DNA of 64,000 nt from Oxalobacteraceae bacterium (lineage in GTDB: Bacteria > Pseudomonadota > Gammaproteobacteria > Burkholderiales > Burkholderiaceae_D). Position 1 is the first letter of the stretch; each line of letters starts with the position of its first letter. The notes under the pieces are model-generated. The model did not search any database and was not told the DNA's origin. It saw nothing but the letters and a program-made list of their open reading frames with translations. The position numbers and the translations under genes are program-made. The stretch is taken from NCBI GenBank assembly GCA_021768485.1, contig JAIZVZ010000007.1, positions 1 through 64,000 on the forward strand, given 5' to 3'. Shown piece by piece: positions 37,795 to 59,312 of this stretch.

Positions 37795-38034
37795 ATTTTT
37801 CCAGGCAAAAATTACAGGTTTGAGACAGATCAATATCGACGGTTCCATAAATTTCTCAAAGAAACAACTTAGCGCTATCAGAAAATAAATCGTTTTTTAT
37901 AATGTCCAAGAAGGTGAAATCGCTGAAAAAACGCAGCTATCAATTGATCGCACTCAACGCTATAACTCAGCCAAAAGGTACGCTCTTCATGCGTCCATGG
38001 TGTGCAAGGTAAATCACATCTACCGGAGAGGAAA

Positions 38035-39486
38035 ATGGCCTTTGAAGACATGTTGCACCCATGGTTAGGAATGTATACCGCCTCGCCGCAATGGTTCAAA
38101 AATTCGCTCGGCCGCGCCTACTCGGCGCTGCCGCTCGGCTTGCGCAAGGGGCGCCATTATCAACAGTTTTCGCACGAAGCCAATCTCGACAACGAGTGCG
38201 AGATCGCGCAATTGGCAAACCAGAAGCTGGCCACGACCTTGTCGTGGGCCATTCGCAGCGTACCCGCCTACAAGCAATTCAAGAATTTGCTGCGCCACAT
38301 CGATCTTGCCGATCCAAAGGCGCAGCGCCAAATCCTGCGTGAATTCCCGCTGGTTTCAAAAGAAGACATCCGCCGCGATTTGAATAATTATCTTGAAAAG
38401 TCGGCCGCGCGCCGCTTCGGCCTGAAGACCTATAGCGGTGGCTCGACAGCGACGCCGATGATGTCGTATCTGCATAAAGGCATATCACGAACCAAGGAAT
38501 ATGCCTTCATGAACAACTTCTACCGGCGGGTCGGGGTCGGCGAACAAGACATCATCCTGGCCTTGCGCGGACGGACCGTACCGACCGCAAAACAGGCCGG
38601 CGGCAAGCTCTGGATGTATGAACCGATCAATCGCCAGCTGATGCTCAGTTCAGACCATCTCGAACGCCGTTATATGGATGACTACATACGGACCATCCGC
38701 GCATGGAAGCCAAGCTTCATCCATGCCTATCCTTCGGCCATCTATCCACTGGCGCGCTGGATCAAGGAAAATTCCATTCCCGACATTGCCGGCCGCATCA
38801 AAGGCGTCATGCTGTTTTCAGAAAACGTCCTCGACCATCACATGAGCTTGCTGAAAGACGTCTTTCAGTGTCCGATATTTAAGCAATATGGCCATACCGA
38901 AAAAGTCTTGATGGCCGCCTCGCTGGCTGATGATGAACGCTATTTTTTTTGGCCGCAATATGGTCATACTGAACTTGTCGATGCAATGGGCAATGCCGTC
39001 ACCCGCCCCGGCGAACTGGGCGAACTGGTCGGCACCGGGTTCGATAATCATGTGATGTCCTTCATTCGCTATCGCACCGGCGACATGGCCATCCTCGACG
39101 ATACTGCCAGCACAAAATTGCCAGGCTATCCCGTGATGACACGGATCGAGGGCCGGCGTCAGGAATTCATCGTCTGCCGCGATCATCGCCTGATCGGCGT
39201 CTGCGGCATGGGAGCGGCCCATTCTCGCGACTTGATGGAAGTCGATTCCATGCAATACGAACAAAAGACACCTGGCCACCTGATTTTGAAAGTCGTCACG
39301 CCGCGCCCCTTGTCCCTGGAAACCAAGCAACGCATTATCGGCGCGATGGAAGCGAAAACGCAGGGGGGATGCACGGCGGAAGTCATTGAAGTCGAGACGA
39401 TCGCGCGTACCCTGCGCGGAAAACATCAACTACTGGTACAACATATCGATATCAGTCCTTATCTTGGGGCGACGGTTGCGCAATGA
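38035..39486 (+). CDS. PaaK/CapK-like adenylate-forming enzyme
   Basis: 483 residues related to phenylacetate-CoA ligase and capsule protein CapK. The nucleotide-binding loop is TYSGGSTATPMM (about residue 135); YGHTEKVLMA (about 290) and FIRYRTGDMAIL with EGRRQEFI (about 345-375) fit the ANL-superfamily A5-A8 region. In polysaccharide loci such enzymes are thought to activate acyl or amino-acid substituents, unproven here. GGAGAGG precedes ATG 38035. The stop overlaps the next gene by 4 nt (ATGA). Confidence 0.82.
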   Translation: MAFEDMLHPWLGMYTASPQWFKNSLGRAYSALPLGLRKGRHYQQFSHEANLDNECEIAQLANQKLATTLSWAIRSVPAYKQFKNLLRHIDLADPKAQRQILREFPLVSKEDIRRDLNNYLEKSAARRFGLKTYSGGSTATPMMSYLHKGISRTKEYAFMNNFYRRVGVGEQDIILALRGRTVPTAKQAGGKLWMYEPINRQLMLSSDHLERRYMDDYIRTIRAWKPSFIHAYPSAIYPLARWIKENSIPDIAGRIKGVMLFSENVLDHHMSLLKDVFQCPIFKQYGHTEKVLMAASLADDERYFFWPQYGHTELVDAMGNAVTRPGELGELVGTGFDNHVMSFIRYRTGDMAILDDTASTKLPGYPVMTRIEGRRQEFIVCRDHRLIGVCGMGAAHSRDLMEVDSMQYEQKTPGHLILKVVTPRPLSLETKQRIIGAMEAKTQGGCTAEVIEVETIARTLRGKHQLLVQHIDISPYLGATVAQ

Positions 39487-40553
39487 GCGCAAAAAAAATG
39501 ATTGTAATGCTCGGTACCAGCTTCGACAGCATGGGAGGCGTATCGACAGTCATCAACGGTTACCGCGAAGCCGGCCTGTTTCGCCGCTTCCCGGTCCTTT
39601 ACATTGCCACGCATAGCGATGGCAGCAGAATGAAAAAATTCAGGGTTTTCCTGCTCGCCTGGCTGCGCTTTCTATCGCTATTGTTACGTAATAAAATTTC
39701 CGCGCTCCATGTTCACATGTCGTCGAACGCCAGCTTCTGGCGCAAGACCTTTTTTCTTTTTCCGGCTTTTTTATTGCGGGTCCCCTCCATTTTGCATCTG
39801 CACGGTGGCGCCTTCGACATCTTTTATGAACGCAATAATAACCGCTTCAAAAAATTTTTGATTCGCACGGTCCTCGATCGCGTCGACAGCATTATCGTCT
39901 TGTCTGAAGCGCGCAAAAAATGGATTCAAAGCATTTCCAGCAACGCCAATGTCGACATTATCTACAATGCGGTCGATGTGCCGTCGCCAAGCGACTTCAG
40001 CGGGCGCGAGGCCGGCAATATCCTTTTTCTCGGACAGCTCGGTGCCGCCAAGGGAATTTACGATTTGCTGACGGCCTTGTCGCAACTACTGACGCGCCAT
40101 CCCGACCTCAAATTATTACTTGGCGGCGATGGCGCCCATCAAGCCGTTCAGGATGCCGTCAAAGACATGAATCTGAACGAGCATGTCGAAATTCTCGGAT
40201 GGGTTTCGGGCGATGCCAAGACGGCACTGCTGCAACGCGCCGCCATCTATGCGCTGCCGTCCTATGCCGAAGGCATGCCGATGAGCGTACTGGAAGCGAT
40301 GGCGGCCGGCATGCCGGTAGTGGCGACCAGCGTCGGCGGACTGCCCGAAGCGATCACCGATGGCATCGAAGGTTCACTGGTCGCACCCGGCGACGTCAAT
40401 GCCCTCATCGAAGCCATCGATCGGCTACTGCGCGACGCCGATTTACGACGGCGCATGGGGCTGGCGGCGCGAAAGAAAGTTGAATCAACTTTTTCATATC
40501 AACAAGTCATGCCCCAAATAGAACAATTGTATTTAAAACTGTACCAAAAATGA
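39483..40553 (+). CDS. Glycosyltransferase family 4
   Basis: 356-residue cytoplasmic GT-B enzyme. Start region GTSFDSMGGVSTVINGYREA, acceptor domain with LHLHGGAFDIFYER, donor domain with NILFLGQLGAAKGIYDLL, and the nucleotide-sugar motif YAEGMPMSVLEAMAAGMPVV followed by GGLPEAI. Sugar specificity cannot be read. Coupled to the CapK-like gene by ATGA; 152 nt precede the next gene. Confidence 0.92.
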   Translation: MSAKKMIVMLGTSFDSMGGVSTVINGYREAGLFRRFPVLYIATHSDGSRMKKFRVFLLAWLRFLSLLLRNKISALHVHMSSNASFWRKTFFLFPAFLLRVPSILHLHGGAFDIFYERNNNRFKKFLIRTVLDRVDSIIVLSEARKKWIQSISSNANVDIIYNAVDVPSPSDFSGREAGNILFLGQLGAAKGIYDLLTALSQLLTRHPDLKLLLGGDGAHQAVQDAVKDMNLNEHVEILGWVSGDAKTALLQRAAIYALPSYAEGMPMSVLEAMAAGMPVVATSVGGLPEAITDGIEGSLVAPGDVNALIEAIDRLLRDADLRRRMGLAARKKVESTFSYQQVMPQIEQLYLKLYQK

Positions 40554-40705: not shown

Positions 40706-42802
40706 ATGGGCAGGCGATTCAAACAACTGCAATGGCTGTTGCGCCGCTTGAGCCGCATCTCGCTGTGCGAGTGGCCATACCGGCTCGCGTCGCTGCTGCG
40801 TGCCATGCTGCAGTATGCCGGCGCGTTTACCGCCGCCGTGGTCGACGCCGCCGACAATAGCCGCCCCGGCGCGCTGAACTGGGTGCGGGTACCGGCGACA
40901 ACGGCACGGCTTGGCACCGCGCACCGGCAATACGTCGAGGACCTCATGCACGGCCGGCTATTGCTCCTGGGGCAAAAGATACAGTTTGATCCCGATCGGC
41001 CGCAATGGCAGCACGACCCGCTGTCGGGCAGCGCGCTGCCGGCCGGCTTCGGCTTGTTCCTCGACTTCCGCCATATGCCTGGCGAAGGCGATATCAAATT
41101 CCTGTGGGAATTTAATCGTCACCTGTGGTGGGTTCCCGTGGCCCAAGCCTATGCCATCACACACGAACAGCCTTATTTGCACCGCTTGCGCACCTGGCTG
41201 CGCGCATGGCTCGATCAATGCCCTTATCCACTGGGGCCGAACTGGTCGTCACCGGTCGAGCATGGCGTCCGCCTGCTCAATTGGAGTCTGGTCTGGCAAC
41301 TCGTCGGTGGCTGGGAAAGCGCGCTGTTTGAAGGCAGCCATGGCGAATGCCTGCGTACCGATTGGCTGCGCAGCATTTATCAGCACCTGCGCTTTGCCAG
41401 CGACAACTACTCACGCCATTCATCGGCCGACAACCATTTGATTGGCGAAGCCGCCGGCGTCTTTGTCGGTGCCCACACCTGGAATTACTGGCCGCAATGC
41501 GAGCACCTGGCGCAAGGCGCGCAAGCGATTCTCGAGCATGAGATCGTTCGCCAATTTTCCGCCGATGGCGTCAACCTCGAGCAATCGCTGAACTATCAAA
41601 AATTTTCTCTGGAGTTCTTGTTAGCGGCAGCTCTTTGCGCGCGCGCCAACGGCGTGCAATTTTCATCCCAGTACTGGCGGCGACTCGATGTCAGCCTGAC
41701 TTTTGTCGCTGCCATGCTACCTGCCAATGGCAGCGTGCCAGCCATCGGCGACAGCGATGACAGCCGCGTTCTCGGCCTGTTCGACCTTGACGACAGCTGC
41801 CCTTACCGCTCCATGCTGAGCCTGGGCGCAGTCATGTTGTCGCGCACCGACCTGCTGGCCAAAGCCCTGCAATGCGATCTGCAAACGCCATGGCTATGCC
41901 AGAACGCTGCCCATATATGGCGGCAAGCCGACCTGTATGCCCCGGTCGCACTGGCACAAGACTTTCGCCAGGGCGGCTACTTCATTTTGGGAGATGCCCT
42001 GCATACTGCGGTCGAAACCCGCATCGTGTTCGATACCGGCGCGCTGGGCCTGAACCGGGTGGCAGGCCACGGCCACGCCGATGCCCTGTCGCTGTGCCTG
42101 TCGCACCATGGCATGCCTTTGCTGATCGATTCGGGAACTTACTGCTATAACACGGCGTCATCCTGGCGCCACTATTTTCGCGGTACCTCGGCACACAATA
42201 CCTTGACCGTCGACGGCCGCGACCAGGCCGACTATGGCGGTTCCTTCCTGTGGCTGACGGATGTCCACAGCCGGGTCGATGCCAGCCTGCTGTCGCCATA
42301 TCTGGACCGCGTCCGCGCCAGCCACGACGGCTATCTGCGCCTGAACGATCCGGTCCGGCACGTGCGCCAACTCTCGTTCGACAAGGGAGCAATGCTATTG
42401 CAGGTGCAAGATAGCCTTGAATGCAGAGCAAGCCATGAAGTGGCCATTTACTGGCACTTCCATCCCGATTGCGCGGTACAGATTTTTTCAGACCAGGTGC
42501 AGGCGCAACATGGCATCGCACGGCTGGTGTTACGCTGGTCGCATCCGGGCTTGACGGTGCAGGAACTGCGCGTCCGCGATGAAAGCCCTGTCGGCTGGGT
42601 GTCGCCGCGCTTCCATGTAAAGACCCGCGCCACGACAATCGTCATGAAGGGCGTGTTGGGAAATGCCGAGAGCATCATCACGTCCATGCAATTGCACCAG
42701 GCGCACCAGCACCGCCAGCGGCCCCCCTATTCGCGGACGACCACGCCCGATCGTTTCGGCGCGCTGCACAGCGCCACCGGCATCAGACAAGGCATCCAAT
42801 GA
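40706..42802 (+). CDS. Heparinase II/III-like protein
   Basis: 698 residues. The N-terminal half (about 60-400) is an alpha/alpha toroid with RHLWWVPVAQAYAIT, NWSSPVEHGVRLLNWSLVWQ and SSADNHLIGEAAG; the C-terminal half is a beta-sandwich with HGHADALSLCLSHHGMPLLI and RGTSAHNTLTVDGRDQ, the Heparinase_II_III family core with its conserved His/Asn. Such proteins cleave or modify uronic-acid polymers. No cleavable signal peptide is evident, unusual for a lyase acting on exported polymer. Coupled to the DUF354 gene by ATGA. Confidence 0.88.
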   Translation: MGRRFKQLQWLLRRLSRISLCEWPYRLASLLRAMLQYAGAFTAAVVDAADNSRPGALNWVRVPATTARLGTAHRQYVEDLMHGRLLLLGQKIQFDPDRPQWQHDPLSGSALPAGFGLFLDFRHMPGEGDIKFLWEFNRHLWWVPVAQAYAITHEQPYLHRLRTWLRAWLDQCPYPLGPNWSSPVEHGVRLLNWSLVWQLVGGWESALFEGSHGECLRTDWLRSIYQHLRFASDNYSRHSSADNHLIGEAAGVFVGAHTWNYWPQCEHLAQGAQAILEHEIVRQFSADGVNLEQSLNYQKFSLEFLLAAALCARANGVQFSSQYWRRLDVSLTFVAAMLPANGSVPAIGDSDDSRVLGLFDLDDSCPYRSMLSLGAVMLSRTDLLAKALQCDLQTPWLCQNAAHIWRQADLYAPVALAQDFRQGGYFILGDALHTAVETRIVFDTGALGLNRVAGHGHADALSLCLSHHGMPLLIDSGTYCYNTASSWRHYFRGTSAHNTLTVDGRDQADYGGSFLWLTDVHSRVDASLLSPYLDRVRASHDGYLRLNDPVRHVRQLSFDKGAMLLQVQDSLECRASHEVAIYWHFHPDCAVQIFSDQVQAQHGIARLVLRWSHPGLTVQELRVRDESPVGWVSPRFHVKTRATTIVMKGVLGNAESIITSMQLHQAHQHRQRPPYSRTTTPDRFGALHSATGIRQGIQ

Positions 42803-43833
42803 AGATCTGGTTCGATTTATCCAACTCGCCCCACATCAATATGTTTGGCCCCATGATCCGTGAGCTTGAACGCGAACACGACATCATCATCACTTGCCGG
42901 CCATTGGCCAACACGATTGCCCTGCTGGACCTGCATCAATTCGACTATACGGTGGTCGGCCACCATTACGGCGCCAGGCTGTCCAATAAAATCATGGGAT
43001 TTGCCGTACGGGTTTGGCAACTGCAGCGCTTTCTGGCTCGGCAAAAAATCGATGTCGCGATCTCTCAAAGTTCTTTCCACTCGCCGGTCGTCTCGCGCTT
43101 GCTCGGAGTACGTTGCATCTATCTCAACGATAATGAACATGCGATGGGAAATATTCCTGCCTTTTTATGCGCCAATCAAATCATGGTGCCAGAATTTTTG
43201 AGCGGACAACGCTTGCGCCGGCAAGGTGCGCGTCCCGGCAAGTTGCACCATTTTCCGGGAATAAAAGAAGGCATTTACCTTTGGCATCTCGGCATACAGT
43301 TGGCAAACGGCCTGGCGACACGGCCATCGAATATACGCGCCAGCATTTACATCCGTCCAGAGCCATGGAGCGCCCAATATTACAAGGGCAGTCGTAACTT
43401 TCTCGATCAGCTGGTGCTGGACTTGAAAAACCATGCCGCGATCACGCTGCTGCCGCGCGGTGACGCCCAGCTGGCGCACTACCGAGATCCGAAATTCGAT
43501 GGCATCCGCATCATCGACAAGGCGCTCGACATCGCCGAGATCGCCCCCGACTGCGATTTGTTCATCGGTGCCGGCGGCACCATGACGCGCGAAATGGCGG
43601 TACTTGGAATTCCCACCATTTCAGTCTACCAGGACGACTTGCTGGCAGTCGACCGCTATTTGCTGTCGCAACAGGCAATGATCCACTGCCCTGCCCTGAG
43701 CGCGCCGCAAGCGCTGGCATATTTGGAACAGACCGCTCGCGGCGCACCGAACGACGAATTGCTGCGCAAAGGTCGGCAAGCCTATCAAATGATCAAAGAC
43801 ACCATCCTGGCGCCACCTCCGGCCATCGATTGA
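42799..43833 (+). CDS. DUF354 family protein (GT-B-like)
   Basis: 344 residues. MKIWFDLSNSPHINMFGPMI and ICTLND-type centre (CIYLNDNEHAMGNIPAF) match DUF354; the C-terminal GAGGTMTREMAVLGIPTIS resembles the UDP-binding loop of UDP-GlcNAc 2-epimerases and MurG-like transferases. The function is unproven; a glycosyltransferase role is most likely from fold and context. Translationally coupled to the heparinase-like gene. Confidence 0.82.
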   Translation: MKIWFDLSNSPHINMFGPMIRELEREHDIIITCRPLANTIALLDLHQFDYTVVGHHYGARLSNKIMGFAVRVWQLQRFLARQKIDVAISQSSFHSPVVSRLLGVRCIYLNDNEHAMGNIPAFLCANQIMVPEFLSGQRLRRQGARPGKLHHFPGIKEGIYLWHLGIQLANGLATRPSNIRASIYIRPEPWSAQYYKGSRNFLDQLVLDLKNHAAITLLPRGDAQLAHYRDPKFDGIRIIDKALDIAEIAPDCDLFIGAGGTMTREMAVLGIPTISVYQDDLLAVDRYLLSQQAMIHCPALSAPQALAYLEQTARGAPNDELLRKGRQAYQMIKDTILAPPPAID

Positions 43834-43968: not shown

Positions 43969-43991
43969 TTGCATGTTCATTGGAGAGCGCC

Positions 43992-45110
43992 ATGCTACGT
44001 GTTGCGTTAATCGGTCTGGGAAAGATGGGACTGTCGCATTTTGCCATCCTCAGAGCCCATCCCGAGATCGAACTGGTCGCCATATGCGACAGCACTGCCT
44101 ACATGCTAGACATACTTGGCAAATATACTGGCGTGCATTGTTATACTGATTATGGCGATCTTTTGAAACAGGAACGGCCGGACGCTGTCATCATTGCCAC
44201 TCCATCGCGCCTGCACGGCAACATGATCGCCGAGGCGCTCGAACATGACATCAATGTCTTTTGTGAAAAGCCATTCTGCCTCGATCTCGCAGAAGGCGAA
44301 AACCTGGCGCAGCTCGCCCGGCACAAAGACCTGGTCAACCAGGTTGGCTATCACTATCGCTTTGTCGCCACGTTCACCGAGATGAAAAAACTGATCGAGG
44401 CCGGCGCCATAGGCCAGGTCCACCACTTGCGCGCCGAGGCCTACGGCCCGGTCGTTCTCAAGCCGCAAGGGATGAGCTGGCGCGCCAGCAAAAATGAAGG
44501 CGGAGGCTGCCTCTACGACTATGCCTGCCATGCCATCGACCTGATCAACTATCTGGGCGGGCCACCGGCAGCCGTCGGCGGCAGCGTGCTGAACAAGATT
44601 TTTTCGCGCGAAGTGGATGATGAAGTCTATGCAAACCTGTTTTATGCAAATGGAAAAACCGCGCAGATCGCGGCCAACTGGAGCGACGACAGCGTACGCA
44701 AGATGACGACCAAAGTGACGGCATGGGGAAAAAATGGAAAAATTTGCGCAGACCGCCAGGAATTGCAAATCTATCTACGTAACAACGACAATCTTGCGCT
44801 CGGTCTCAGGCAGGGCTGGAATACGCGCTACATCACCGACTTCCCCGATCCGGTCTGGTTTTATTTGCGTGGCGAAGAATACTCCTTGCAAATCGCCCAT
44901 TTCATCGACGCGGTCCGCACCCGGCAGGCCGGTCAGGCCAGCGTTCCGACCCGCAGCACTTTTCAAAGTGCGCTCGAAACCGATCGCGTCCTGGCGATGC
45001 TGCAAGCCGATGCCATCGGCGGCCGCGCAACCGAGGCGGCCGCGCACGCGATCGACGATAAAAGAACGCCACGCTGGTGGCAGATGCTGGCCGGCTTTCC
45101 CGGCCGTTAA
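43992..45110 (+). CDS. Gfo/Idh/MocA family oxidoreductase
   Basis: 372 residues. The NAD(P)-binding Rossmann motif is VALIGLGKMGLSH; the family EKPFCLDLAEG (with catalytic-region Lys) is near residue 95 and DYACHAIDLINYL near residue 180, the latter bearing the conserved His and Asp. Family members include WlbA/WbpB, which oxidise C3 of UDP-GlcNAc uronic acid, but also many unrelated sugar dehydrogenases. GGAGAG precedes ATG 43992. It opens a three-gene module with the TIM-barrel-like protein and the epimerase. Confidence 0.88.
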   Translation: MLRVALIGLGKMGLSHFAILRAHPEIELVAICDSTAYMLDILGKYTGVHCYTDYGDLLKQERPDAVIIATPSRLHGNMIAEALEHDINVFCEKPFCLDLAEGENLAQLARHKDLVNQVGYHYRFVATFTEMKKLIEAGAIGQVHHLRAEAYGPVVLKPQGMSWRASKNEGGGCLYDYACHAIDLINYLGGPPAAVGGSVLNKIFSREVDDEVYANLFYANGKTAQIAANWSDDSVRKMTTKVTAWGKNGKICADRQELQIYLRNNDNLALGLRQGWNTRYITDFPDPVWFYLRGEEYSLQIAHFIDAVRTRQAGQASVPTRSTFQSALETDRVLAMLQADAIGGRATEAAAHAIDDKRTPRWWQMLAGFPGR

Positions 45111-45151
45111 CATCGCGCCAGCCTCTTGTCCTCCACATGAAAGAGCAGACC

Positions 45152-46039
45152 ATGGATAGAATTCTATTTGGCGACAATCAATTTTTCGGAATCAATCACA
45201 TGTCCGAAGAAAAAGCGCGCGCGCAATCGATCAAATTTCAAGATGACGATGCCATCATGGCCGTACTCGACGCCGCCTACGACGAAGGTATCCACACCTT
45301 TATGTGCACCACCCACGAGCGTGTCGCCGCCATCTGCGACCGCGTACGCGCCAGCCCGGAGCACTACCGGCATTTTCAATTCTACCCATGCATGCCCTAT
45401 GCCCATAAATATGCCAATGCCGTGACCGAGCATGGCATGCTCGAGGCGCTGCGCCAGTTTTTGCCGGATAGCGGGCGCGTGAGTGCCATCTTCAAGGGCG
45501 GCATGTCGATCGCAAAAAAAGACGTCGAGGGTCTGGCTCAATTATTGATCGATGCGGAAATGAAAATGTTTCACGAATTGCGCACGCCAGTGATTTTTTT
45601 GCAAAATGTCGTCACCGATTTACTGCTCGGTATGGGCATGCACGATGCGCTGCGCATGTTTGCCGAACATATAAAGGCGCGCTATCACGCCGAGCCTGGC
45701 TTCATCACCATGAACCTGCCGCGCCTGCTCGATGCGCTCGAGCAGCTCGGCATCAACAATCCGATTGTCTGCGCCAATATCAACAAGATCGGCTTCCGCA
45801 TGAGCGGCGGCACCGCCCTTTATGAAGAAGCGATTGCCACGCGACGCTGCCGGCCAGTCGCCATGTCGGTTTTCGCTTCCGGCGCGCTGGCACCGCGGGA
45901 AGCACTGCGCTACGTCTGCGCCCAAAAAAATATCGGCTCCATCGTCTTTGGCGCCTCAAGCCGCCACAATATCGCCGAGACCAAACGGCTGATCGATGAA
46001 TTAAGCGATAGCCGGCTTTTGCCCGAACGTGCTTGCTAA
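45152..46039 (+). CDS. Uncharacterised conserved-looking protein, probably TIM-barrel
   Basis: 295 residues that I cannot assign to a characterised enzyme. Visible features: opening RILFGDNQFFGINHMSEEKA; IMAVLDAAYDEGIHTFMCTT; FYPCMPYAHKYANAVTEHG; LLDALEQLGINNPIVCANIN; a closing SVFASGALAPREALRYVCAQ followed by IGSIVFGASSRHNIAETKRL. Alternating beta/alpha segments with a final IGSIVFGASS strand-loop recall the phosphate-binding end of aldo-keto-reductase-like barrels. No signal peptide. It starts 41 nt after the oxidoreductase stop and ends 15 nt before the epimerase, so an enzymatic step on a nucleotide sugar is the best guess. MKEQTMDR at 45137 is an alternative start. Confidence 0.7.
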   Translation: MDRILFGDNQFFGINHMSEEKARAQSIKFQDDDAIMAVLDAAYDEGIHTFMCTTHERVAAICDRVRASPEHYRHFQFYPCMPYAHKYANAVTEHGMLEALRQFLPDSGRVSAIFKGGMSIAKKDVEGLAQLLIDAEMKMFHELRTPVIFLQNVVTDLLLGMGMHDALRMFAEHIKARYHAEPGFITMNLPRLLDALEQLGINNPIVCANINKIGFRMSGGTALYEEAIATRRCRPVAMSVFASGALAPREALRYVCAQKNIGSIVFGASSRHNIAETKRLIDELSDSRLLPERAC

Positions 46040-46054
46040 ACCCGACCTGACATC

Positions 46055-47197
46055 ATGAAAACCATTTACCTGATCGCCGGTGCACGCCCGAATTTCATGA
46101 AAATTGCGCCCATTGTGCGCGCATTGCAGCGCCAGGCAACGCTCGCATTCAAAATCGTCCATACCGGCCAACATTATGATCGCGACATGAATGAAGTATT
46201 TTTCGAAGAACTGGGCATTCCCAAACCCGACCTCTGCCTGGAGGCCGGCGGTGGCTCCCACGCCAGCCAGACGGCAAAAGTCATGATCGGCTTCGAATCG
46301 CTATGCCTGCAAGAACGCCCCGATTGCGTGTTGGTGGTGGGCGACGTCAATTCGACCATGGCTTGCGCAATTGTCGCAAAAAAACTCAATCTGCCGGTCG
46401 CCCATGTCGAGGCTGGCTTGCGCAGCGGCGATATGAGCATGCCCGAAGAAATCAACAGACTGGTCACCGATGCCATCAGCGACTGGCTTTTTGCCACCGA
46501 GACGGCCGCAGTCGAGCATCTGTTGCGGGAGGGGAAATCATCGACAAAAATCCATTACGTCGGTCACGTCATGGTGGACAATGTTTTATATCAACTTAAA
46601 AAATTGCTCGCCAGCGAGCGCTCGGCCATGGCCTCGACCAAATTGAAAGCGCGCCTGCAGGCCAACGGACCTTACGGCGTCGTCACCCTGCACCGTCCAG
46701 GCAACGTGGATACCCCGCTTGTCTTGCAGTCGCTGGCGCGGGCGCTACGCAATGTGTCCGAACACATTCCACTGGTCTTCCCCGTGCACCCACGCACGCG
46801 CGCCATGTTGATGCAAACCCAAACTACGCTAGGCGCCAATGTGATCCTGACCGGCCCCCTGGCCTATATGGAGTTTCTCGACCTGTGGCGTGAAGCGGCC
46901 ATGGTGCTGACGGATAGTGGTGGCTTACAGGAAGAAACAACCGCGCTGGGCATTCCATGCCTGACCTTGCGCAACAATACCGAACGGCCGATCACCATCG
47001 ATGCCGGCAGCAATATACTGGTCGGCACCGATCCAATCCGGATCAAGGAAGAAGCCCTGCACATCCTTCACGGGAAAGGTAAAAAAGGCCGCTGTCCCCC
47101 AATGTGGGACGGCCACGCCGCCGAACGCATCATCGATATCCTGTCGCGGGAATTGGCCCCGAATTCACCGCCGGTGCAGCGGGCCACGGCAGCCTGA
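46055..47197 (+). CDS. wecB: UDP-N-acetylglucosamine 2-epimerase (non-hydrolysing)
   Basis: 380 residues. IAGARPNFMKIAPIVRAL, HTGQHYDRDMNEVFFEELGI, GDVNSTMACAIVA, HVEAGLRSGDMSMPEEINR and LTDSGGLQEETTALGIPCLT are the family signatures, with the catalytic acid/base residues in the EAGLR and EE segments. It makes UDP-ManNAc from UDP-GlcNAc; the IPKPD and MPEEINR forms also resemble WbpI-type enzymes acting on UDP-sugar uronates, so wecB is used loosely. Last gene of the plus arm. Confidence 0.9.
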   Translation: MKTIYLIAGARPNFMKIAPIVRALQRQATLAFKIVHTGQHYDRDMNEVFFEELGIPKPDLCLEAGGGSHASQTAKVMIGFESLCLQERPDCVLVVGDVNSTMACAIVAKKLNLPVAHVEAGLRSGDMSMPEEINRLVTDAISDWLFATETAAVEHLLREGKSSTKIHYVGHVMVDNVLYQLKKLLASERSAMASTKLKARLQANGPYGVVTLHRPGNVDTPLVLQSLARALRNVSEHIPLVFPVHPRTRAMLMQTQTTLGANVILTGPLAYMEFLDLWREAAMVLTDSGGLQEETTALGIPCLTLRNNTERPITIDAGSNILVGTDPIRIKEEALHILHGKGKKGRCPPMWDGHAAERIIDILSRELAPNSPPVQRATAA

Positions 47198-47381: not shown

Positions 47382-49007
47382 TCACGGTACGGCATTTTTA
47401 GCTAATGTATCGTCATCGCTGGCGCTTGGCGTTTCCGCGGCGCCGTGCGTTGCCGTAATTGCACTGTGCTGCGCAGCCGATGGTGAACGGCATGCAGACC
47501 CCGGTTCCACAGTAAATTCCGGACCATGTACGGGCTCGGCTTTTGGCTCTGACACCAAAACCTGTTGCTTCATGAATGGCAGCAGCAAACCAATCGCCAT
47601 CCACAGCACCGTCAACTCGGCCGTGGGAATGTAATCGCCATTTGACCAGCCGGCAATCAAAAGACCAAGCAGAGCCGCCCGCGTGCCGTTGGCCAGGCCG
47701 ACAAAATACACGGGCGTCGTCGGCATCCTGGCGATGCGTTTGAAATTGCGCAGCAAATAGGTGACAAAACACGCCAGCAAAAACAGCCCGATCAAACCCA
47801 TGTCGAGTACGATACGCAAATATAAATTGTGGGGATGGACATGGCTGACCTCGCCGCGCAATACCGCCTGGGCCCAGGCCGTCGCGCCGACGCCAGTCCC
47901 GACAAAAGGATGCCTCCAGACATCGGGCAATAGCAAATTCCACATCCAGACCCGACCGGCAGTCAAGCCATCGTTGCTGGTGCCTATCAGTCCGCGAACC
48001 GGAACATGATTAATCCCGTTTGAAATACGCAACCACAAGGCATCGGGCGCAATGGCCACCGTTGCACATAGCAATAAGGCGATCAAGAAAATATAATTCA
48101 TTTGCCGGTAAATCATTGCAAAATACAAAATTGCGACGACGGCCACCACATAGCCGCCGCGCGAAAACGTCAGTAACAAGGCCAGCAAGACAACAGCCAT
48201 GCCGGCCAAATTCAAGAACCGCCACAGATAACTGCGTATCGTCGGCATCATGAAAAGCATCAAGGCAAAACTGGTGCTGAGCAAGAGACCGAATTCATTG
48301 GCATGCAGACCGAGCTTGCCCAAAACTTCGCGCGAGCGTTCATCGGCCAGCAATTTCAGATTGAAGCCATTGATCGATACAAAAATGAAAATGGCGAACG
48401 CGGGCAAGATGGGGGTCGCCAGCAAAGCGCCGATAAGGCGTTCCGGCTTTTTGCATTGCAATGCGGCGCAGCCATACATCCACGCCCCCAAAACCATCAG
48501 CATCGGCTTGATGACCATGCCGATCAGATAGTATCGGGGACTTGAATAATAAATGCTTTGAAGCTCGATCAAGACCCGCGGCACTTGATGAAGATGACCG
48601 AGGCCATTGAGCGTGGCGAAGCCGATCGGCAAAAAATAAGCCCATAAAAAAATCGGTGGAAATGGCGCCAGCGGAAGCCGCCGGAAATAATATCCCGTGA
48701 GCAAAGACAACAGGCTGGCCAGCATCAGGTAATTCACCAGATTAAATCCTGTAAACTGCGGCAGGAATGGCGTATGCTGAAATGGCAATAGAAATATCAG
48801 CAGCAGCGCCCCGACACGCATGTCGCGCAAGACAAACATTACGGGCAATACGGGAAGAAATAATATCAGAGCCAATTCCCCGCCGAAAAAAGCGGACACG
48901 CTGCCGAGCGCAGCGGCCAGCAATAAGGCAATCACCGGCAAATAAGCCGATTGCCTGGCGCCGAGTTCGCCCGCGATTTTATACGGTCTGTCTGCGTAGT
49001 GCATCAT
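47382..49007 (-). CDS. O-antigen ligase/polymerase family protein (Wzy-like)
   Basis: 541 residues with about twelve transmembrane helices. The large periplasmic loop contains GTSNDGLTAGRVWMWNLLLP followed by PFVGTGVGATAWAQ and HPHNLYLRIVLDMGLIGL, the O-antigen ligase (Wzy_C/WaaL) motif with conserved Arg and His. In this Wzx/Wzy locus it is the likely polymerase joining repeat units in the periplasm. The last 60 residues are an unrelated acidic, Ala/Ser-rich cytoplasmic tail. Its start lies 29 nt inside the flippase gene. Confidence 0.87.
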   Translation of the reverse strand: MMHYADRPYKIAGELGARQSAYLPVIALLLAAALGSVSAFFGGELALILFLPVLPVMFVLRDMRVGALLLIFLLPFQHTPFLPQFTGFNLVNYLMLASLLSLLTGYYFRRLPLAPFPPIFLWAYFLPIGFATLNGLGHLHQVPRVLIELQSIYYSSPRYYLIGMVIKPMLMVLGAWMYGCAALQCKKPERLIGALLATPILPAFAIFIFVSINGFNLKLLADERSREVLGKLGLHANEFGLLLSTSFALMLFMMPTIRSYLWRFLNLAGMAVVLLALLLTFSRGGYVVAVVAILYFAMIYRQMNYIFLIALLLCATVAIAPDALWLRISNGINHVPVRGLIGTSNDGLTAGRVWMWNLLLPDVWRHPFVGTGVGATAWAQAVLRGEVSHVHPHNLYLRIVLDMGLIGLFLLACFVTYLLRNFKRIARMPTTPVYFVGLANGTRAALLGLLIAGWSNGDYIPTAELTVLWMAIGLLLPFMKQQVLVSEPKAEPVHGPEFTVEPGSACRSPSAAQHSAITATHGAAETPSASDDDTLAKNAVP

Positions 49008-50262
49008 GCCAATATCCCCTGAATAGATAAATCAGCGCCAGCAAGGCAAGCATATACGCGCTCGCATAGGCAATCGGTGCCGCCTGCACGCCCATCGCGG
49101 GCAGGCACAGATAGGTCAGGCTGACCTGCAGGCAAGTGAGAACGATATCGATCGCCATATAGGCATAGGAGCGCAATTTGACGACCAGTGCCATTTGCAA
49201 AGGCCAGCACGCAAGCTTGCAGACATCGCCGACAATCTGAAACGGCAGCAGATCGCGCACCGGATGAAATTGCGGCGTAAAGATGATGGCAATGACCACG
49301 TCGCGCAACAGCCATAGCAACAGGCCAGCCAGCGCCGTCAGCGCTGCCACCGTCAATACGGTATTGGACAGTTCGCGGCCAAACCCGCTCTCGTCGCCGA
49401 TCCTCGACAGGCGCGGCATCAAATACATCGACAAAGCGGCCGTCAGCAGCAAGGTATAGGTGTCGGACAGACGCACCGTGGCCTGCCAAAAGCCGGCCGC
49501 CGCCAGGCCCGCACCGGCCGTGAGGGCGCCGCGCATCAATAGCGGGGCCAGCGGTTCGGCAATCACATGCACGAGCAACATCGGATAAAAGGCGATCAGA
49601 CTGCGCGCCAGCGGCCGGTCCCAGCGCCCCCAAAAATCGCCGATTTTTACCGGCATATCGGCTTTCCCACGACGGCGGTAAATCACCAGCAGGCCAAAAA
49701 ACAGGCTTGCGCAATATGCGAGCGCGGTCCCGACCAGACCGCCCCCGATGCCAAAAAAGTAGCTGAGCGGGATCACCATGACAGCCCCGCTGACGGCCGC
49801 CGCAATGCCGATCGCACCGAGCATGCCAACGCGCTGGATGCCATTGACGACGCCGATGACAATTGTTCCGGCGGCAACCAATGGCAGGGCCAGCGCAGCC
49901 AGCACAACAATGGGCCAATAATGGACATCTTTGAATAACCACCCGGCGATAGGCCAGGCCAAGCAGGCAATCGGCAAGGCAGCGGCCAGACCGAGGCCCA
50001 CCGTCATCTTCATGGCGGTTCCCCACAAAGCCAGCAAGCGCTCGCGATCGCCGCTCGATTGCGCGGTGATCTTGACAACGCCGGTCTGAATCGCATTGCT
50101 GATCACGCCCTGAATCAGGGACATGAAATTTCCGAGTTGCCCGACCAGCGCCAGGCCGGCCGGTCCAAGATACACGGCCGTCACTTTAATGCTGATAAAA
50201 CTGCATGCCATGCGCACCGCGGTTTGGGCGATCGACCAGCGCAGCGCATCCTTCAGTGCCAT
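48979..50262 (-). CDS. Polysaccharide flippase, Wzx-like
   Basis: 427 residues, twelve to fourteen transmembrane helices, of the polysaccharide-transport MATE/MVF group; the start ALKDALRWSIAQTAVRMACS with FISIKVTAVYLGPAGLALVG matches O-antigen translocases such as WzxE. Moves the lipid-linked repeat unit across the inner membrane. Start ATG 50262 (MALKDA) is preferred; the frame stays open to 50313. Overlaps the polymerase by 29 nt. Confidence 0.88.
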   Translation of the reverse strand: MALKDALRWSIAQTAVRMACSFISIKVTAVYLGPAGLALVGQLGNFMSLIQGVISNAIQTGVVKITAQSSGDRERLLALWGTAMKMTVGLGLAAALPIACLAWPIAGWLFKDVHYWPIVVLAALALPLVAAGTIVIGVVNGIQRVGMLGAIGIAAAVSGAVMVIPLSYFFGIGGGLVGTALAYCASLFFGLLVIYRRRGKADMPVKIGDFWGRWDRPLARSLIAFYPMLLVHVIAEPLAPLLMRGALTAGAGLAAAGFWQATVRLSDTYTLLLTAALSMYLMPRLSRIGDESGFGRELSNTVLTVAALTALAGLLLWLLRDVVIAIIFTPQFHPVRDLLPFQIVGDVCKLACWPLQMALVVKLRSYAYMAIDIVLTCLQVSLTYLCLPAMGVQAAPIAYASAYMLALLALIYLFRGYWHDALRRQTV

Positions 50263-50359
50263 GGCCTGCATTCCAGAGGCGGACAGGCAGGCGGCCTGCA
50301 TGGATGAGGCCACGCATCAGGAAATAGGCTGCCCTCTTCCATGCGCTGCGGCCTCGCGT

Positions 50360-51523
50360 TCATGCCAGTCCCGTATGCAGCGGCGCCACATCGGCAAGCT
50401 TCTCGCCAATGCCATGGCTGCTAAAGCACGCTTCATAAGCGAGTAGGGCGGCCTCGGGCGTATAGCGGGCACGGTAGCAGGCGCGGCTGCGGTCGCCGCA
50501 CCAGCGCCATAGCACTTCGTCGCACATCAGTGCCGCCACCTGCTCCGTCATCGATTCGATATCGGATGCAATCTGCAGCACAGGATGAGCATCGAAGCGA
50601 TCGCCGGTATCAAAGAAGCTGACCACCGGTATGCCGCATGCCCATGCCTGCATAAAAGTCACTGGAAAACCTTCAAATTCGGAAGTATTGACCAGCACCC
50701 GCGCGCCATTGAATTGTTCGTGCATTTCAGAAAATGGCACATAACCGCAAAATTCAATATTGGGCAATGTAGCCGCCAGCTTGGCCATCTCTTGGTACAG
50801 TTCGCGGTCGCTGGGGCCGCCCACCATTCGAAATTTGAGATATGGCAAACGCCTGGCAATCTCGATAAATAGTTCAGGGCGCTTCAGGCGGCGCATATTG
50901 GCAACCCACAATACATAACCCTTGGGGTCGCGCCTCGAACCGGGCAGGCATTCATGGCAGCTCGGGACAATTGTGCCCGAGCGCGCAAAAAGTGCCTGGC
51001 AGTCTTTCATTTGAGCCTCATTTTGCAAAATCAAGATATCGGCCATGCGGATGCCGCGCCGGTACAGCCACTGATCGCGCCGGTACCGGACCAGCGGCAA
51101 ATCTCGATAAAAGTCGGCATCCGACGCCGCGACAAAGACAAAATGCCGACGATTGCTACGGCAGAACTGTCCCACCAGACCGGTCAGCATTCCGCTGCAA
51201 GATTGATAATATATATCGGCATCGGCCCGTTGCATGGCCTTCCACAAGCGTGTCGCGCGCGGATAGAAAAAGCGCAGGCCGGGAATGCCGCCTTTCTCCG
51301 AATGCGCGCGATAAATTCTGACGCCATCGATCTCGATACCGTCCGGTTGCCCGAAATCGCGCGTGACAATCGAAACCCGATAACCGGCGCGGGCAAATGT
51401 GCGCGCCAATACGCTTTGCTGTACTTCAGCGCCGCCGACAAGCTCGATAGAGCGGTCGCCTGAAAATACCGGAAAAATCGCCGGCGCCACAAAGCAGATG
51501 TGCGGTTTTTGCATTTTCATCAC
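50360..51523 (-). CDS. Glycosyltransferase family 4
   Basis: 387 residues. N-terminal ICFVAPAIFPVFSGDRSIEL with GGAEVQQSVLARTFARAGY (GT4 acceptor domain); YVLWVANMRRLKRPELFIEI begins the donor domain; NTSEFEGFPVTFMQAWACGI is the nucleotide-sugar motif, with Glu-rich EFEG in place of the common EGFG. Sugar unknown. First of three close genes (then flippase and polymerase) on the minus arm; 374 nt separate it from the previous glycosyltransferase. Confidence 0.9.
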   Translation of the reverse strand: MMKMQKPHICFVAPAIFPVFSGDRSIELVGGAEVQQSVLARTFARAGYRVSIVTRDFGQPDGIEIDGVRIYRAHSEKGGIPGLRFFYPRATRLWKAMQRADADIYYQSCSGMLTGLVGQFCRSNRRHFVFVAASDADFYRDLPLVRYRRDQWLYRRGIRMADILILQNEAQMKDCQALFARSGTIVPSCHECLPGSRRDPKGYVLWVANMRRLKRPELFIEIARRLPYLKFRMVGGPSDRELYQEMAKLAATLPNIEFCGYVPFSEMHEQFNGARVLVNTSEFEGFPVTFMQAWACGIPVVSFFDTGDRFDAHPVLQIASDIESMTEQVAALMCDEVLWRWCGDRSRACYRARYTPEAALLAYEACFSSHGIGEKLADVAPLHTGLA

Positions 51524-51897: not shown

Positions 51898-53214
51898 CTA
51901 ATCGGGCTCTTTCCCGGCCACCTTGTTATTCAAATCACTGAATAAGGACTGATAAGCCGTCGCCATTTGCAAATGCGAAAAATTTTCGCTGACTTTGCGC
52001 CGCGCGGCCAGGCCCATCTGCTTCGCCATTCCCGACCTCACCAGATCGGCAATACAGCGCGTCATCTGCTTGATATTTCCGCGCTCAACCAGATAGCCGT
52101 GGACGCCATGTTCGATTTGTTCCGATGCGCCGCCGACCTCGCTCATGATGACGGGCTTGCCGAGCGCCATCGCCTCGAGCGCGGCCAGCGAAAATGTCTC
52201 GGCATGCGACACCAGCGCCATCACATCGCAAGCCGACACCGCAAGCCGCACATCGGCCAGATAACCGGTGATGCCTACCCTGTGCGCCAGGCCCAGCGCG
52301 ATGATGGCTTTTTCGATTTTTTGCCGTTCGGGGCCGTCGCCGATGAACAGGCAACGCACATGCAGCAAGGATGGCGGCAGGCCGGCCAGCGCGGCCAGCA
52401 AATCGGCATGGGCTTTTTCGGGACGCATGACGGCGCACACGCCGATGACAAAATCGTCACCTGACCAACCGTAGCTTTGGCGCAGCCGTATTTTTTCGGT
52501 ATCGCTGGCCTTATCTGTAAACCGGCTCAATTCGATGCCGTTATAAATGACGGCATCATCCCTGGCTTTCAACGACCTGTTACGCCAATACCGGCGCTGA
52601 TTTTCACAGACATACACGAGCATGTCGCAACGGGCAAACAAGGGGCGGTAACACCACATTTGCAGGCGTGCTTTCAGGCTACGCATATGAAATGGCGAAG
52701 AGTGAAACAAGTCGACCAGTTTGGGCGCCGCAGCCGACAGCTTGCATGCCAGAACCGCATACAATAATGCATAGCCATTGATTGCAATCACACTATCGAT
52801 TTGCTCATCTTCAATGATTTTGGCTAATTTTTTGGCGACCGAAAAATCGAGCTTGCGCTTCACGTCGCAGCAATAAATGCGTCCATCGAGCTGCGTCTGC
52901 TTTAATTGCGGCAACAAACTGCCATCATTTTTCAGATAGGCCAGCGACATTCGAAATCGCGTGGTATCGAGATGATTGAGCAAGCTCACCACATGTTTTT
53001 CCGCGCCGCCAAAAGTCAGAGAATTTACAATAAACAAAAGATGAATGGCTTGCTTGCCATGTTTTCCGGCACCCTGCTCTTCGGCCCCCCGCTCTTCGAT
53101 CCCATTCATGGCTGGCTGCCGACAGGAAGGCAACACGACATCAGCCGCCGCAGCGCTGCTCATAGCACTGTTCATATTCGCGGTCGCTGTCTCAACGATG
53201 CGGTGCAAGCTCAT
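51898..53214 (-). CDS. Glycosyltransferase family 4
   Basis: 438 residues with an unusual 55-residue Ser/Ala/Gly-rich N-terminal extension before the fold starts at LLFIVNSLTFGGAEKHVVSL. Donor domain: VIGVCAVMRPEKAHADLLAA; nucleotide-sugar motif SHAETFSLAALEAMALGKPV with GGASEQI. Start ATG 53214 is supported by GGGAGGAG upstream, so the extension is probably translated. It lies 148 nt after the UDP-sugar dehydrogenase gene. Confidence 0.9.
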   Translation of the reverse strand: MSLHRIVETATANMNSAMSSAAAADVVLPSCRQPAMNGIEERGAEEQGAGKHGKQAIHLLFIVNSLTFGGAEKHVVSLLNHLDTTRFRMSLAYLKNDGSLLPQLKQTQLDGRIYCCDVKRKLDFSVAKKLAKIIEDEQIDSVIAINGYALLYAVLACKLSAAAPKLVDLFHSSPFHMRSLKARLQMWCYRPLFARCDMLVYVCENQRRYWRNRSLKARDDAVIYNGIELSRFTDKASDTEKIRLRQSYGWSGDDFVIGVCAVMRPEKAHADLLAALAGLPPSLLHVRCLFIGDGPERQKIEKAIIALGLAHRVGITGYLADVRLAVSACDVMALVSHAETFSLAALEAMALGKPVIMSEVGGASEQIEHGVHGYLVERGNIKQMTRCIADLVRSGMAKQMGLAARRKVSENFSHLQMATAYQSLFSDLNNKVAGKEPD

Positions 53215-53362
53215 ACACTCCTCCCAGCGGCGCATCGCCAATCACTCAAGAAGCCAATTTGACAGGTAGTCATCAGTAATTTTTGCTCACCAAAACTAAG
53301 GCTATACACTCCCTGCGCGCTGCATACCGCCAGCCCACAGCTCCACCGCTGGCGCACCGGTC

Positions 53363-54646
53363 TCAGAGACGCCACAAGCGAATGCCGGCAGCCTCGAACA
53401 ACTGAGGATCGCACACACCCTTGACGTCGACGACAACAGGCCGGTCCGACAACAAGCGAATGAAATCGGCCGGCTTCCACGAACCGAAGCCATCGTGCGC
53501 CACGGCCAGCAAGACTGCGTGTGCCGGCTGCAAGTCGGGCAAGTCGATCAGGCCGACCCCATATTCACAAGCTGCCTCATGCTGATCGGCGCAAGGATCG
53601 TGGACTTGCACAGAAACCCCGAACGATTGCAATTCGTGGATCACATCGATCACCTTCGAGTTGCGCAAATCGGGACAGTTTTCCTTAAAGGTCAGACCGA
53701 GCACGGTGACGATACAGTCGCGTACGTCGTGGCCGCCCTTGATCAGCTGGCGAATTGTCTGGCGTGCGATATGCGCCCCCATGCCATCATTGATACGCCG
53801 GCCGGCAAGAATGACTTCACAGTGATAACCGAGGGTTTCGGCCTTATGCGTCAAATAATAAGGATCGACGCCAATGCAATGGCCGCCGACCAGGCCCGGT
53901 TTGAATTTCAAAAAATTCCATTTCGTACCCGCCGCCTCGAGCACACTGTGGGTGTCAATGCCCATTCGTTCGAAGATCAGCGCCAGCTCATTCATTAAAG
54001 CGATATTCAAGTCGCGCTGCGTATTTTCAATCACCTTGGCGGCTTCGGCGACACGAATCGTTGTTGCCTTGAAAATTCCTGCCGTCACGACCGAACCATA
54101 GACATCGGCGACGATATCGAGCGTCGCCGTATCCTGGCCAGAGACGACTTTGGTGATTTTGGTAAAAGTATGTTCGTGGTCGCCCGGATTGATACGCTCG
54201 GGGCTGTAGCCGACGGTAAAATCAATACCGCACTTCAAACCCGACATCGCCTCGAGAATGGGCGCGCAAACCTCTTCGGTCGCTCCGGGGTAGACGGTCG
54301 ATTCGTAGACCACGATATCGCCAGTTTTGAGAACCATGCCGACAGTCTCGGACGCGCGCTTGACCGCTGTCAGATCGGGTTGATGCGCGCTATCAACTGG
54401 CGTCGGCACCGCCACGATATGAAAATCGGCTTGCGCCAGAACCCGCACATCGCTGGTGAAAATGATTTCCGCATCCATCAAACGATTGACATCGATTTCA
54501 TTGGTGCGGTCATATCCCTTGCGTAATTCAGCCAGACGCGATTCATTGATGTCGAAACCAATGGTTTTTCCATGCATGCCGAAAGCGACGGCCACCGGCA
54601 AGCCGACATAGCCAAGGCCTACTACAGAAATTTTTCTAGCGTGCAT
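53363..54646 (-). CDS. UDP-N-acetylhexosamine 6-dehydrogenase (TviB/WbpO/WecC type)
   Basis: Four-electron oxidation of a UDP-N-acetylhexosamine to its uronic acid using NAD+. 427 residues: Rossmann motif VVGLGYVGLPVAVAFG, VAVPTPVD, YESTVYPGATEEVCAPILE, GYSPERINPGD, central ENTQRDLNIALMNE, and GGHCIGVDPYYL with the catalytic Cys. These fit the TviB/WbpO and WecC group rather than UDP-glucose dehydrogenase. The substrate could be UDP-GlcNAc, UDP-GalNAc or UDP-ManNAc. With the 2-epimerase in the plus arm it points to an N-acetyl-hexosaminuronic acid in the polymer. Confidence 0.9.
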   Translation of the reverse strand: MHARKISVVGLGYVGLPVAVAFGMHGKTIGFDINESRLAELRKGYDRTNEIDVNRLMDAEIIFTSDVRVLAQADFHIVAVPTPVDSAHQPDLTAVKRASETVGMVLKTGDIVVYESTVYPGATEEVCAPILEAMSGLKCGIDFTVGYSPERINPGDHEHTFTKITKVVSGQDTATLDIVADVYGSVVTAGIFKATTIRVAEAAKVIENTQRDLNIALMNELALIFERMGIDTHSVLEAAGTKWNFLKFKPGLVGGHCIGVDPYYLTHKAETLGYHCEVILAGRRINDGMGAHIARQTIRQLIKGGHDVRDCIVTVLGLTFKENCPDLRNSKVIDVIHELQSFGVSVQVHDPCADQHEAACEYGVGLIDLPDLQPAHAVLLAVAHDGFGSWKPADFIRLLSDRPVVVDVKGVCDPQLFEAAGIRLWRL

Positions 54647-57964: not shown

Positions 57965-57987
57965 GGCCATACCTTTTGCGAGGCAAA

Positions 57988-59217: not shown

Positions 59218-59312
59218 TTTTTGGGATTCAAAGTAAAAGGACAGCCAAAAGAAAGCCGGCACGCCTGCGCCGCATCGTGTGATTCAAGTTGCAAATAAGA
59301 TTTGTCGATCAA

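Follow-up and report, generated by a model that had tools for sequence, protein, structure and literature searches.

The conserved unit in an exopolysaccharide locus

Three closely spaced genes in a stretch of 64,000 nucleotides from an Oxalobacteraceae bacterium (contig JAIZVZ010000007.1 of assembly GCA_021768485.1, positions 1 to 64,000; hereafter the window) raise the question of which sugar conversion they serve. They encode a Gfo/Idh/MocA dehydrogenase, a protein of 295 residues (the barrel protein, after its predicted fold) and a non-hydrolysing UDP-N-acetylglucosamine (UDP-GlcNAc) 2-epimerase. The original prediction read them as one module acting on UDP-GlcNAc uronic acid (UDP-GlcNAcA), as in the Wbp/Wlb pathways. 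The layout that it gave was confirmed, with all three frames on the + strand, starts at 43992, 45152 and 46055 and gaps of 41 and 15 nt, and the identities of the oxidoreductase and the 2-epimerase were confirmed by Pfam and TIGR00236 scores (Table 1). The first frame is nested in a longer open reading frame with a TTG start at 43980 and the second in one with a GTG start at 45077. As set out below, the conserved unit is the dehydrogenase and barrel pair, not the three genes. The pair probably performs a sugar conversion that has not been described before and that is linked to an early surface-polysaccharide step. On balance, and with modest confidence, we favour the reading that it is a dedicated two-enzyme keto-sugar editing unit for the second-sugar step of Wzx/Wzy-type repeat-unit assembly. 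No description of the pair or its members was found in the open-licence PubMed Central literature, although one may exist in print elsewhere.

Distribution of the barrel protein

Searches with the barrel protein came back empty both in Pfam and NCBIfam (families, E ≤ 1) and in the PDB (sequences, E ≤ 10), so that the earlier description of it as unrecognised stands. A profile of the family gave two matches to PDB sequences (E values of 1.3 and 2.2), which were taken as chance. When the organism's own genome was searched with PF00248, the family of the aldo-keto reductases (AKRs), five other genes were matched and the barrel gene was not.

Relatives were collected by scanning bacterial and archaeal species genomes with a six-sequence alignment. 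At least 595 stretches matched, at least 429 of which encode a relative that Pfam and NCBIfam leave unnamed. The 80 nearest of these relatives (at least 64% identity), together with six others, make up the set of 86 loci used throughout; L104 and L105 might duplicate a species from another collection. The 80 nearest loci are mainly from Proteobacteria and Actinobacteria (mycobacteria, Microbacteriaceae and others), and one short metagenome contig each is labelled Acidobacteria (L011) and Prosthecobacter (L049). A tblastn search of a collection of 72,556 plasmid records found the protein in four of them, from Rhodovulum, Palleronia and Novosphingobium (60–64% identity) and from Bacteroides (44–45%). 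The scan of viral contigs gave 38 pattern matches and no relatives, and the phage collection held none. Closer to the window, matches were found in 4 of 300 genomes of its order, one of them being the window itself, and in 2 of 299 genomes drawn from its phylum, the window included. Two of the matches within the order are weak (E values of 3e-4 and 7e-4) and look like chance, because the frames encode a U32 peptidase in one genome and MreD and penicillin-binding proteins in the other. The distribution of the family is patchy.

Pairing of the barrel protein with a dehydrogenase

In 84 of the 86 loci a Gfo/Idh gene precedes the barrel gene at a distance of no more than 1.5 kb, which bears out the tie that had been drawn between the two proteins; in the remaining two (L066 and L067) the contig begins at the barrel gene. 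The intergenic gap is at most 100 nt in 82 of these 84 loci, the exceptions being L013 (133 nt) and L009 (965 nt, with two transferase halves in between). Separate searches of the plasmid records with the barrel protein (E ≤ 1e-5) and the dehydrogenase (E ≤ 1e-30, a stricter limit chosen to exclude other Gfo/Idh enzymes) returned the same four records and no others. The pairwise distances of the two proteins are correlated, with r = 0.90 over 3486 pairs, a value not corrected for shared descent. The proximity of the two genes is far from chance, and in the loci seen their products form a near-obligate, co-varying pair.

The third gene does not belong to this unit. Neighbours could be called upstream of the pair in 74 of the 84 loci and downstream in 72, some of the calls probably being shadow frames. 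The downstream neighbours are diverse (2-epimerase 6, GMC oxidoreductase 6, each of the other families shown at most 5), and a 2-epimerase was found in 10 of the 84 pair loci. A conserved unit of three genes was therefore rejected.

GMC flavin oxidoreductase genes are present in 21 of the 84 pair loci, Burkholderiales included, and may belong to a wider pathway; the mycobacterial loci that carry one are L080, L070, L052, L057, L063, L064, L084, L085 and L068. A Pfam scan of L080, the only one of these so examined, gave in addition a priming transferase (PF02397), a Wzy-type protein and an AKR of the ordinary PF00248 type.

The dehydrogenase looks active from its sequence. All 85 sequences keep E92-K93-P94 and H180, and 84 of them keep D176; we take K93, D176 and H180, the lysine of the EKP motif, the Asp and the His, to be the catalytic residues of Gfo/Idh enzymes. 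Asp33, which follows the second strand and hardly varies, points to NAD+ as the cofactor. As the best other match among 30 related genomes is 32% identical, the enzyme looks like a subfamily of its own. Among its PDB matches, entries titled inositol dehydrogenase and DgpA stand above 3q2k (E 6e-19, rank 13), which we take to be WlbA.

Fold and candidate active site of the barrel protein

The protein had been called TIM-barrel-like in the original prediction, and structure prediction agrees. Conservation was followed in an alignment (A2) of the window and 72 of the 80 fetched loci, leaving out L022, L046, L052, L059, L064, L066, L070 and L084. The AlphaFold2 model (mec0afa64e4bf, from 73 sequences) has a mean predicted local distance difference test score (pLDDT) of 82.6 and a predicted template modelling score of 0.83, and is less certain at residues 11–30, 81–130, 211–220 and the C-terminus (block means of 51–73). 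Foldseek placed 4exb, titled putative aldo-keto reductase, at the top of its PDB matches (E 3.6e-6, TM score 0.56), and most of the lower rows are AKRs. VIA-align gave a Z score of 18.1 to 4exa (PA4992), with a root mean square deviation of 2.9 over 223 residues and 12% identity. Many AKRs reached Z scores of 16–18 over 223–243 residues at 9–16% identity, and the 50 rows listed are AKRs or Kv-beta chains, either by title or to the best of our knowledge. In a library of viral structures, giant-virus AKRs came first (E 1e-4 to 1e-3), followed by other barrels. The model thus predicts a (beta/alpha)8 barrel of AKR topology.

The catalytic tetrad of the AKRs appears to be replaced in this model. 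The organism's own AKRs served as the reference, with the Asp following strand 2, the Tyr beyond it, the Lys following strand 3 and the His following strand 4. By strand order, judged by eye over 73 sequences, the positions of Asp, Tyr, Lys and His correspond to M51/C52, D56 or E56, M81 and Q151; all of these stand-ins are non-canonical, also when the placing is shifted by one. K86 sits five residues beyond M81, the strand-order position of the AKR Lys. A set of other residues (D8, N9, Q10, H16, Y83, H85, K86, Y87, Q151, N152, N188 and N211) is invariant in 73 of 73 sequences and in the Bacteroides homologue. An invariant polar set in a protein that appears to lack the tetrad has the look of a repurposed active site rather than of a decayed one.

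The same residues bear on whether the barrel protein is an enzyme at all. It might instead be a non-catalytic partner (a cofactor holder, a stabiliser or a channelling subunit) of a dehydrogenase that makes or consumes the keto-sugar alone. The apparent loss of the tetrad and the pairing and co-variation of the two proteins are in keeping with such a role, but the invariant H16, H85, K86, Y87, Q151, N152, N188 and N211 in post-strand loops look like a working site, and we consider it improbable.

The transferase slot beside the pair

The genes of the loci were classed by tblastn, all-against-all BLAST and hidden Markov models (HMMs) of the classes, with flanks of up to about 8 kb, often shorter. 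The gene directly upstream of the pair in the window, a DUF354 protein omitted from the original prediction, proved to belong to a recurring arrangement. Among the 74 called upstream neighbours, Pfam found DUF354 in 17, WecG/TagA/CpsF in 15, the C-terminal domain of glycosyltransferase family 28 (GT28) in 12 and DUF1972 in 10, besides domains of family GT4. With the class HMMs, one transferase class, and never two, lies within 1.5 kb of the pair in 72 of the 84 loci: GT28 in 26 (with an Alg14 match close to the pair in 12 of these), WecG in 18, DUF354 in 18 and DUF1972 in 10. The transferase is upstream on the same strand as the pair in 56 of the 72. Genes of the four classes that end no more than 150 nt upstream of the dehydrogenase on its strand number 55 of 79, as compared with 3 of 65 for other GT4-type genes of the same loci. 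The latter set consists of BLAST clusters 2, 18, 19, 22 and 37, from each of which one or more members were checked with Pfam; cluster 22 includes at least one small protein that has no Pfam family.

Repeated exchange of the transferase has left the pair in place. On a tree of the barrel protein, made by a quick method without bootstrap (84 rows, 71 of them labelled; L066, L104 and L105 not included), the class switches at least 18 times over the labelled rows, and each class is clustered when compared with 500 shuffles. Two Bradyrhizobium loci with nearly identical barrel proteins differ in class, L016 having DUF354 downstream and L022 GT28 upstream, and so do Nitrosospira loci (WecG in L062; DUF354 in L054, L075 and L089). 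The plasmid loci L007 and L008 of Rhodobacterales also carry the exosortase genes xrtE and xrtD near the pair and its WecG transferase.

For the DUF354 protein of the window, an AlphaFold2 model (mf3822272080a, pLDDT 87.2) has a GT-B fold, with Z scores of 26.6 to 2-epimerases, 22.7 to MurG and 22.3 to PglA. This fold serves both activities; inspection of the DUF354 consensus by eye did not reveal the GDVNST, HVEAGLRS and PEEINR stretches that the neighbouring epimerase has. The protein would occupy the glycosyltransferase position that precedes the pair. No paper linking DUF354 with polysaccharide and glycosyltransferase was found in the open-licence PubMed Central literature.

Proposed function of the pair

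From the observed pairing, co-variation, intact residues, modelled fold and transferase association we infer the following chemical steps and substrate. The dehydrogenase would oxidise one ring hydroxyl to a ketone, probably with NAD+; C3 is the usual oxidation site in the Gfo/Idh superfamily. The AKR-fold partner would act on the ketone through its other invariant polar residues, for which H16, H85, K86, Y87, Q151 and N152 are candidates, and the ketone would be converted into an epimer, an isomer or an elimination product. The hydride may then be returned by the dehydrogenase or by a third enzyme. The product would be the sugar needed by the adjacent transferase (DUF354 in the window), either as the donor nucleotide sugar, which is slightly favoured on priors, or as the lipid-linked acceptor.

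A number of observations weigh against this proposal. We know of no activity for either protein of the pair. The fold match, with 12% identity, tells nothing about function, and a profile comparison with the genome's five AKRs covers a C-terminal stretch only, at 1.1% probability. The mean pLDDT is 55 in the block of H16 and 72 in that of H85–Y87, so that the model is not firm at the candidate active site. Nine mycobacterial loci have their transferase upstream but on the opposite strand, and in seven loci it is downstream of the pair or, in L009, between its genes; in 12 of the 84 no gene of the four classes comes within 1.5 kb, three of these loci being cut or short contigs (L018, L049 and L061). 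The association was counted within pair-bearing loci only, and these are not independent, because they are the 80 nearest of at least 429 relatives plus six; the Fisher p for 55/79 against 3/65 is too small for the same reason and overstates the evidence. Switches of class that are forced by strongly supported branches are fewer (GT28 6, DUF354 4, WecG 2, DUF1972 1). Finally, the transferase role of DUF354 is taken from position and motifs, since its model is nearer to 2-epimerases than to MurG.

Donor or lipid-linked acceptor

What is known of the transferase families bears on the form of the substrate. MurG and PglA each add a second sugar onto a lipid-linked sugar, and PssD and PssE correspond to the Alg14 and GT28 halves. 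WecG-family enzymes are thought to attach the second sugar to a monosaccharide linked to undecaprenyl pyrophosphate (UndPP) (PMC11340318); GacB puts rhamnose onto GlcNAc-PP-Und and WchF/Cps2T puts it, as the second sugar, onto Glc-PP-Und (PMC6802508); and PssDE transfers glucuronic acid (GlcA) onto lipid-linked glucose (PMC7589315). Characterised members of three of the four classes (WecG, GT28/PssDE and DUF1972) are described as acting second, on UndPP-linked sugars.

As the known donors differ while the type of acceptor is shared, a lipid-linked substrate is a serious rival to the donor form. The pair would then oxidise and reset a hydroxyl on the UndPP-monosaccharide before, or on the UndPP-disaccharide after, the adjacent transferase has acted, which would make it the two-component equivalent of Gnu or DprE1/DprE2. 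We entertain this tentatively. Donors of the adjacent families vary (GlcA for PssDE, rhamnose for GacB/Cps2T) over one kind of acceptor, UndPP-Glc or UndPP-GlcNAc, and GlcNAc-PP binding, and with it a role as acceptor-binding domain, has been proposed for DUF1972 of GacB (PMC6802508). Gnu, a UndPP-GlcNAc 4-epimerase, offers a precedent with its neighbouring transferase: the two epimerase genes of Y. pseudotuberculosis flank the gene for the transferase of the next sugar (PMC3682973). DprE1/DprE2 is a two-protein redox epimerase with a polyprenyl-linked sugar as substrate. Donor specificity can, however, shift within a transferase family. Moreover, the biosynthetic Gfo/Idh enzymes known to us all use nucleotide sugars. 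In its fullest form, in which a two-component Gfo/Idh and tetrad-less AKR-fold enzyme epimerises or isomerises a UndPP-attached sugar, coupled to committed second-sugar transfer by four exchangeable transferase families in several phyla, the idea is rather doubtful.

The uronic-acid pathway

The original prediction would make the dehydrogenase a C3 dehydrogenase of the WbpB/WlbA type acting on UDP-GlcNAcA, with the barrel protein converting the 3-keto product before the 2-epimerase acts. The 6-dehydrogenase that it placed in the other arm of the locus is indeed a UDP-sugar 6-dehydrogenase, nearest to TviB, and both this gene and a 2-epimerase occur near the pair in the window and in L036, L037, L048 and L076. 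Across the 84 pair loci, however, a homologue of the 6-dehydrogenase is seen in 12 and a 2-epimerase in 10, within flanks that reach about 8 kb at most, and a search of the same flanks with six queries found an aminotransferase of the DegT family in 1 of 86 loci (L044). For these reasons UDP-GlcNAcA chemistry is not general for the pair. The dehydrogenase has no special likeness to WlbA, and the mycobacterial and Bacteroides loci show neither a 6-dehydrogenase nor a 2-epimerase within the available stretch. We regard this model as very unlikely. What survives of it is the conversion of a keto intermediate by the barrel protein, a sensible guess that we retain for the editing unit proposed here; UDP-GlcNAcA as its general substrate does not. 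In the window and the other four loci named above, the uronic-acid route may provide the polymer with a different residue. The TIGR00236 match of the 2-epimerase leaves both a WecB and a WbpI type of substrate possible.

The remark that the aminotransferase and the N-acetyltransferase are not visible near the pair held for the former, DegT genes being absent from the window's contig; the acetyltransferase was not searched for across the loci. The suggested look for a WbpE/WbpD pair elsewhere in the genome gave 14 matches to the DegT family and a second Gfo/Idh gene, in a search in which specific WbpD and WbpE models were not used. That second Gfo/Idh gene lies on contig 42 of the same genome (L101), together with two of the DegT genes and frames that resemble, by eye, a PseB-type dehydratase, a CMP-sugar transferase and a NeuB/PseI synthase. 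This cluster is probably a separate nonulosonic-acid pathway.

The locus in the window

Judged from the sequences of their products, the genes around the three form a Wzx/Wzy-type exopolysaccharide locus (Table 1). The polyprenyl glycosylphosphotransferase is the putative priming enzyme and would put the first sugar onto the lipid.

Table 1. Genes of the polysaccharide locus with their positions in the window, strands and supporting matches.
Feature	Position	Strand	Evidence and remarks
Polyprenyl glycosylphosphotransferase	33560..34966	+	PF02397 1.2e-69, PF13727
GT4 glycosyltransferase	39483..40553	+	PF00534
Heparinase II/III-like protein	40706..42802	+	PF07940, PF16889; upstream of DUF354
DUF354 protein, GT-B fold	42799..43833	+	PF04007 2.9e-54; directly upstream of the pair
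Gfo/Idh/MocA dehydrogenase, pair gene 1	43992..45110	+	PF01408 2.5e-28, PF22725 4.7e-24, PF02894 above cut-off
AKR-type barrel protein, family unrecognised, 295 aa, pair gene 2	45152..46039	+	AlphaFold2 model
Non-hydrolysing UDP-GlcNAc 2-epimerase	46055..47197	+	PF02350 1.7e-107; TIGR00236 316 bits (cut-off 210)
O-antigen ligase/polymerase family protein, Wzy-type	47382..49007	-	PF04932
Wzx-type flippase	48979..50313	-	NF011679 (WzxE) 188 bits, under the cut-off of 325; no Pfam family
GT4 glycosyltransferase	50360..51523	-	PF13692
GT4 glycosyltransferase	51898..53241	-	PF00534
UDP-sugar 6-dehydrogenase, TviB-like	53363..54646	-	NF011729 485 bits, under the cut-off of 592
Wzz chain-length protein	55658..57073	-	PF02706
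Wza export protein	57116..57970	-	PF02563

Three further frames of the region were noted. The 494-residue product of 38002–39486 has no Pfam family and clusters loosely with the GT4 group; its homologues in L035 and L037 (49–57% identity) precede a GT4 gene, the heparinase II/III gene, DUF354 and the pair, the order being kept. A DUF4832/DUF4874 protein is encoded on the opposite strand within the polysaccharide locus (36304–37848). The frame adjoining Wza (57988–59262) has a weak beta-barrel porin match only (BBP2_2, E 0.0048, under the cut-off).

Significance and comparison with known systems

An assignment of the pair would give a name to a 'hypothetical protein' that recurs in the exopolysaccharide loci of Proteobacteria, Actinobacteria and Bacteroides, and of Acidobacteria and Verrucomicrobia as well if two short metagenome contigs are binned rightly. 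The association with the transferases predicts a substrate at the second-sugar step. If the proposal is true, the pair would be a marker for the second sugar of the repeat unit, and non-redox chemistry would perhaps have been added to the AKR fold.

Gnu and the DprE1/DprE2 couple resemble the lipid-linked form of the proposal in that they epimerise a polyprenyl-linked sugar, and DprE1/DprE2 is also a couple of two proteins. They differ in that Gnu is a single, GalE-related protein and DprE1/DprE2 a flavoprotein plus a reductase. Neither Gnu nor the DprE1/DprE2 couple is known to have a Gfo/Idh or AKR fold.

WlbA/WbpB and other Gfo/Idh enzymes share with the dehydrogenase of the window the fold family and the EKP lysine, the Asp and the His, but that dehydrogenase looks like a subfamily of its own, tied to the barrel protein, and a DegT gene accompanies the pair in a single locus. 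The AKR superfamily (PF00248) is alike in predicted fold, and a weak profile match (the 1.1% probability given above) places the C-terminal GASS..N of the barrel protein on the cofactor-phosphate motif of the AKRs; the barrel protein differs in having no PF00248 match and, as placed by eye, non-canonical residues at the tetrad positions. Among PDB sequences the dehydrogenase has DgpA2 as its second match, and DgpA with its partners is a couple in which a dehydrogenase works with a TIM-barrel enzyme in the breakdown of 3-keto-glycosides. The barrel partners of DgpA are, however, of the xylose-isomerase/IolE kind and not of the AKR kind, and that system is catabolic.

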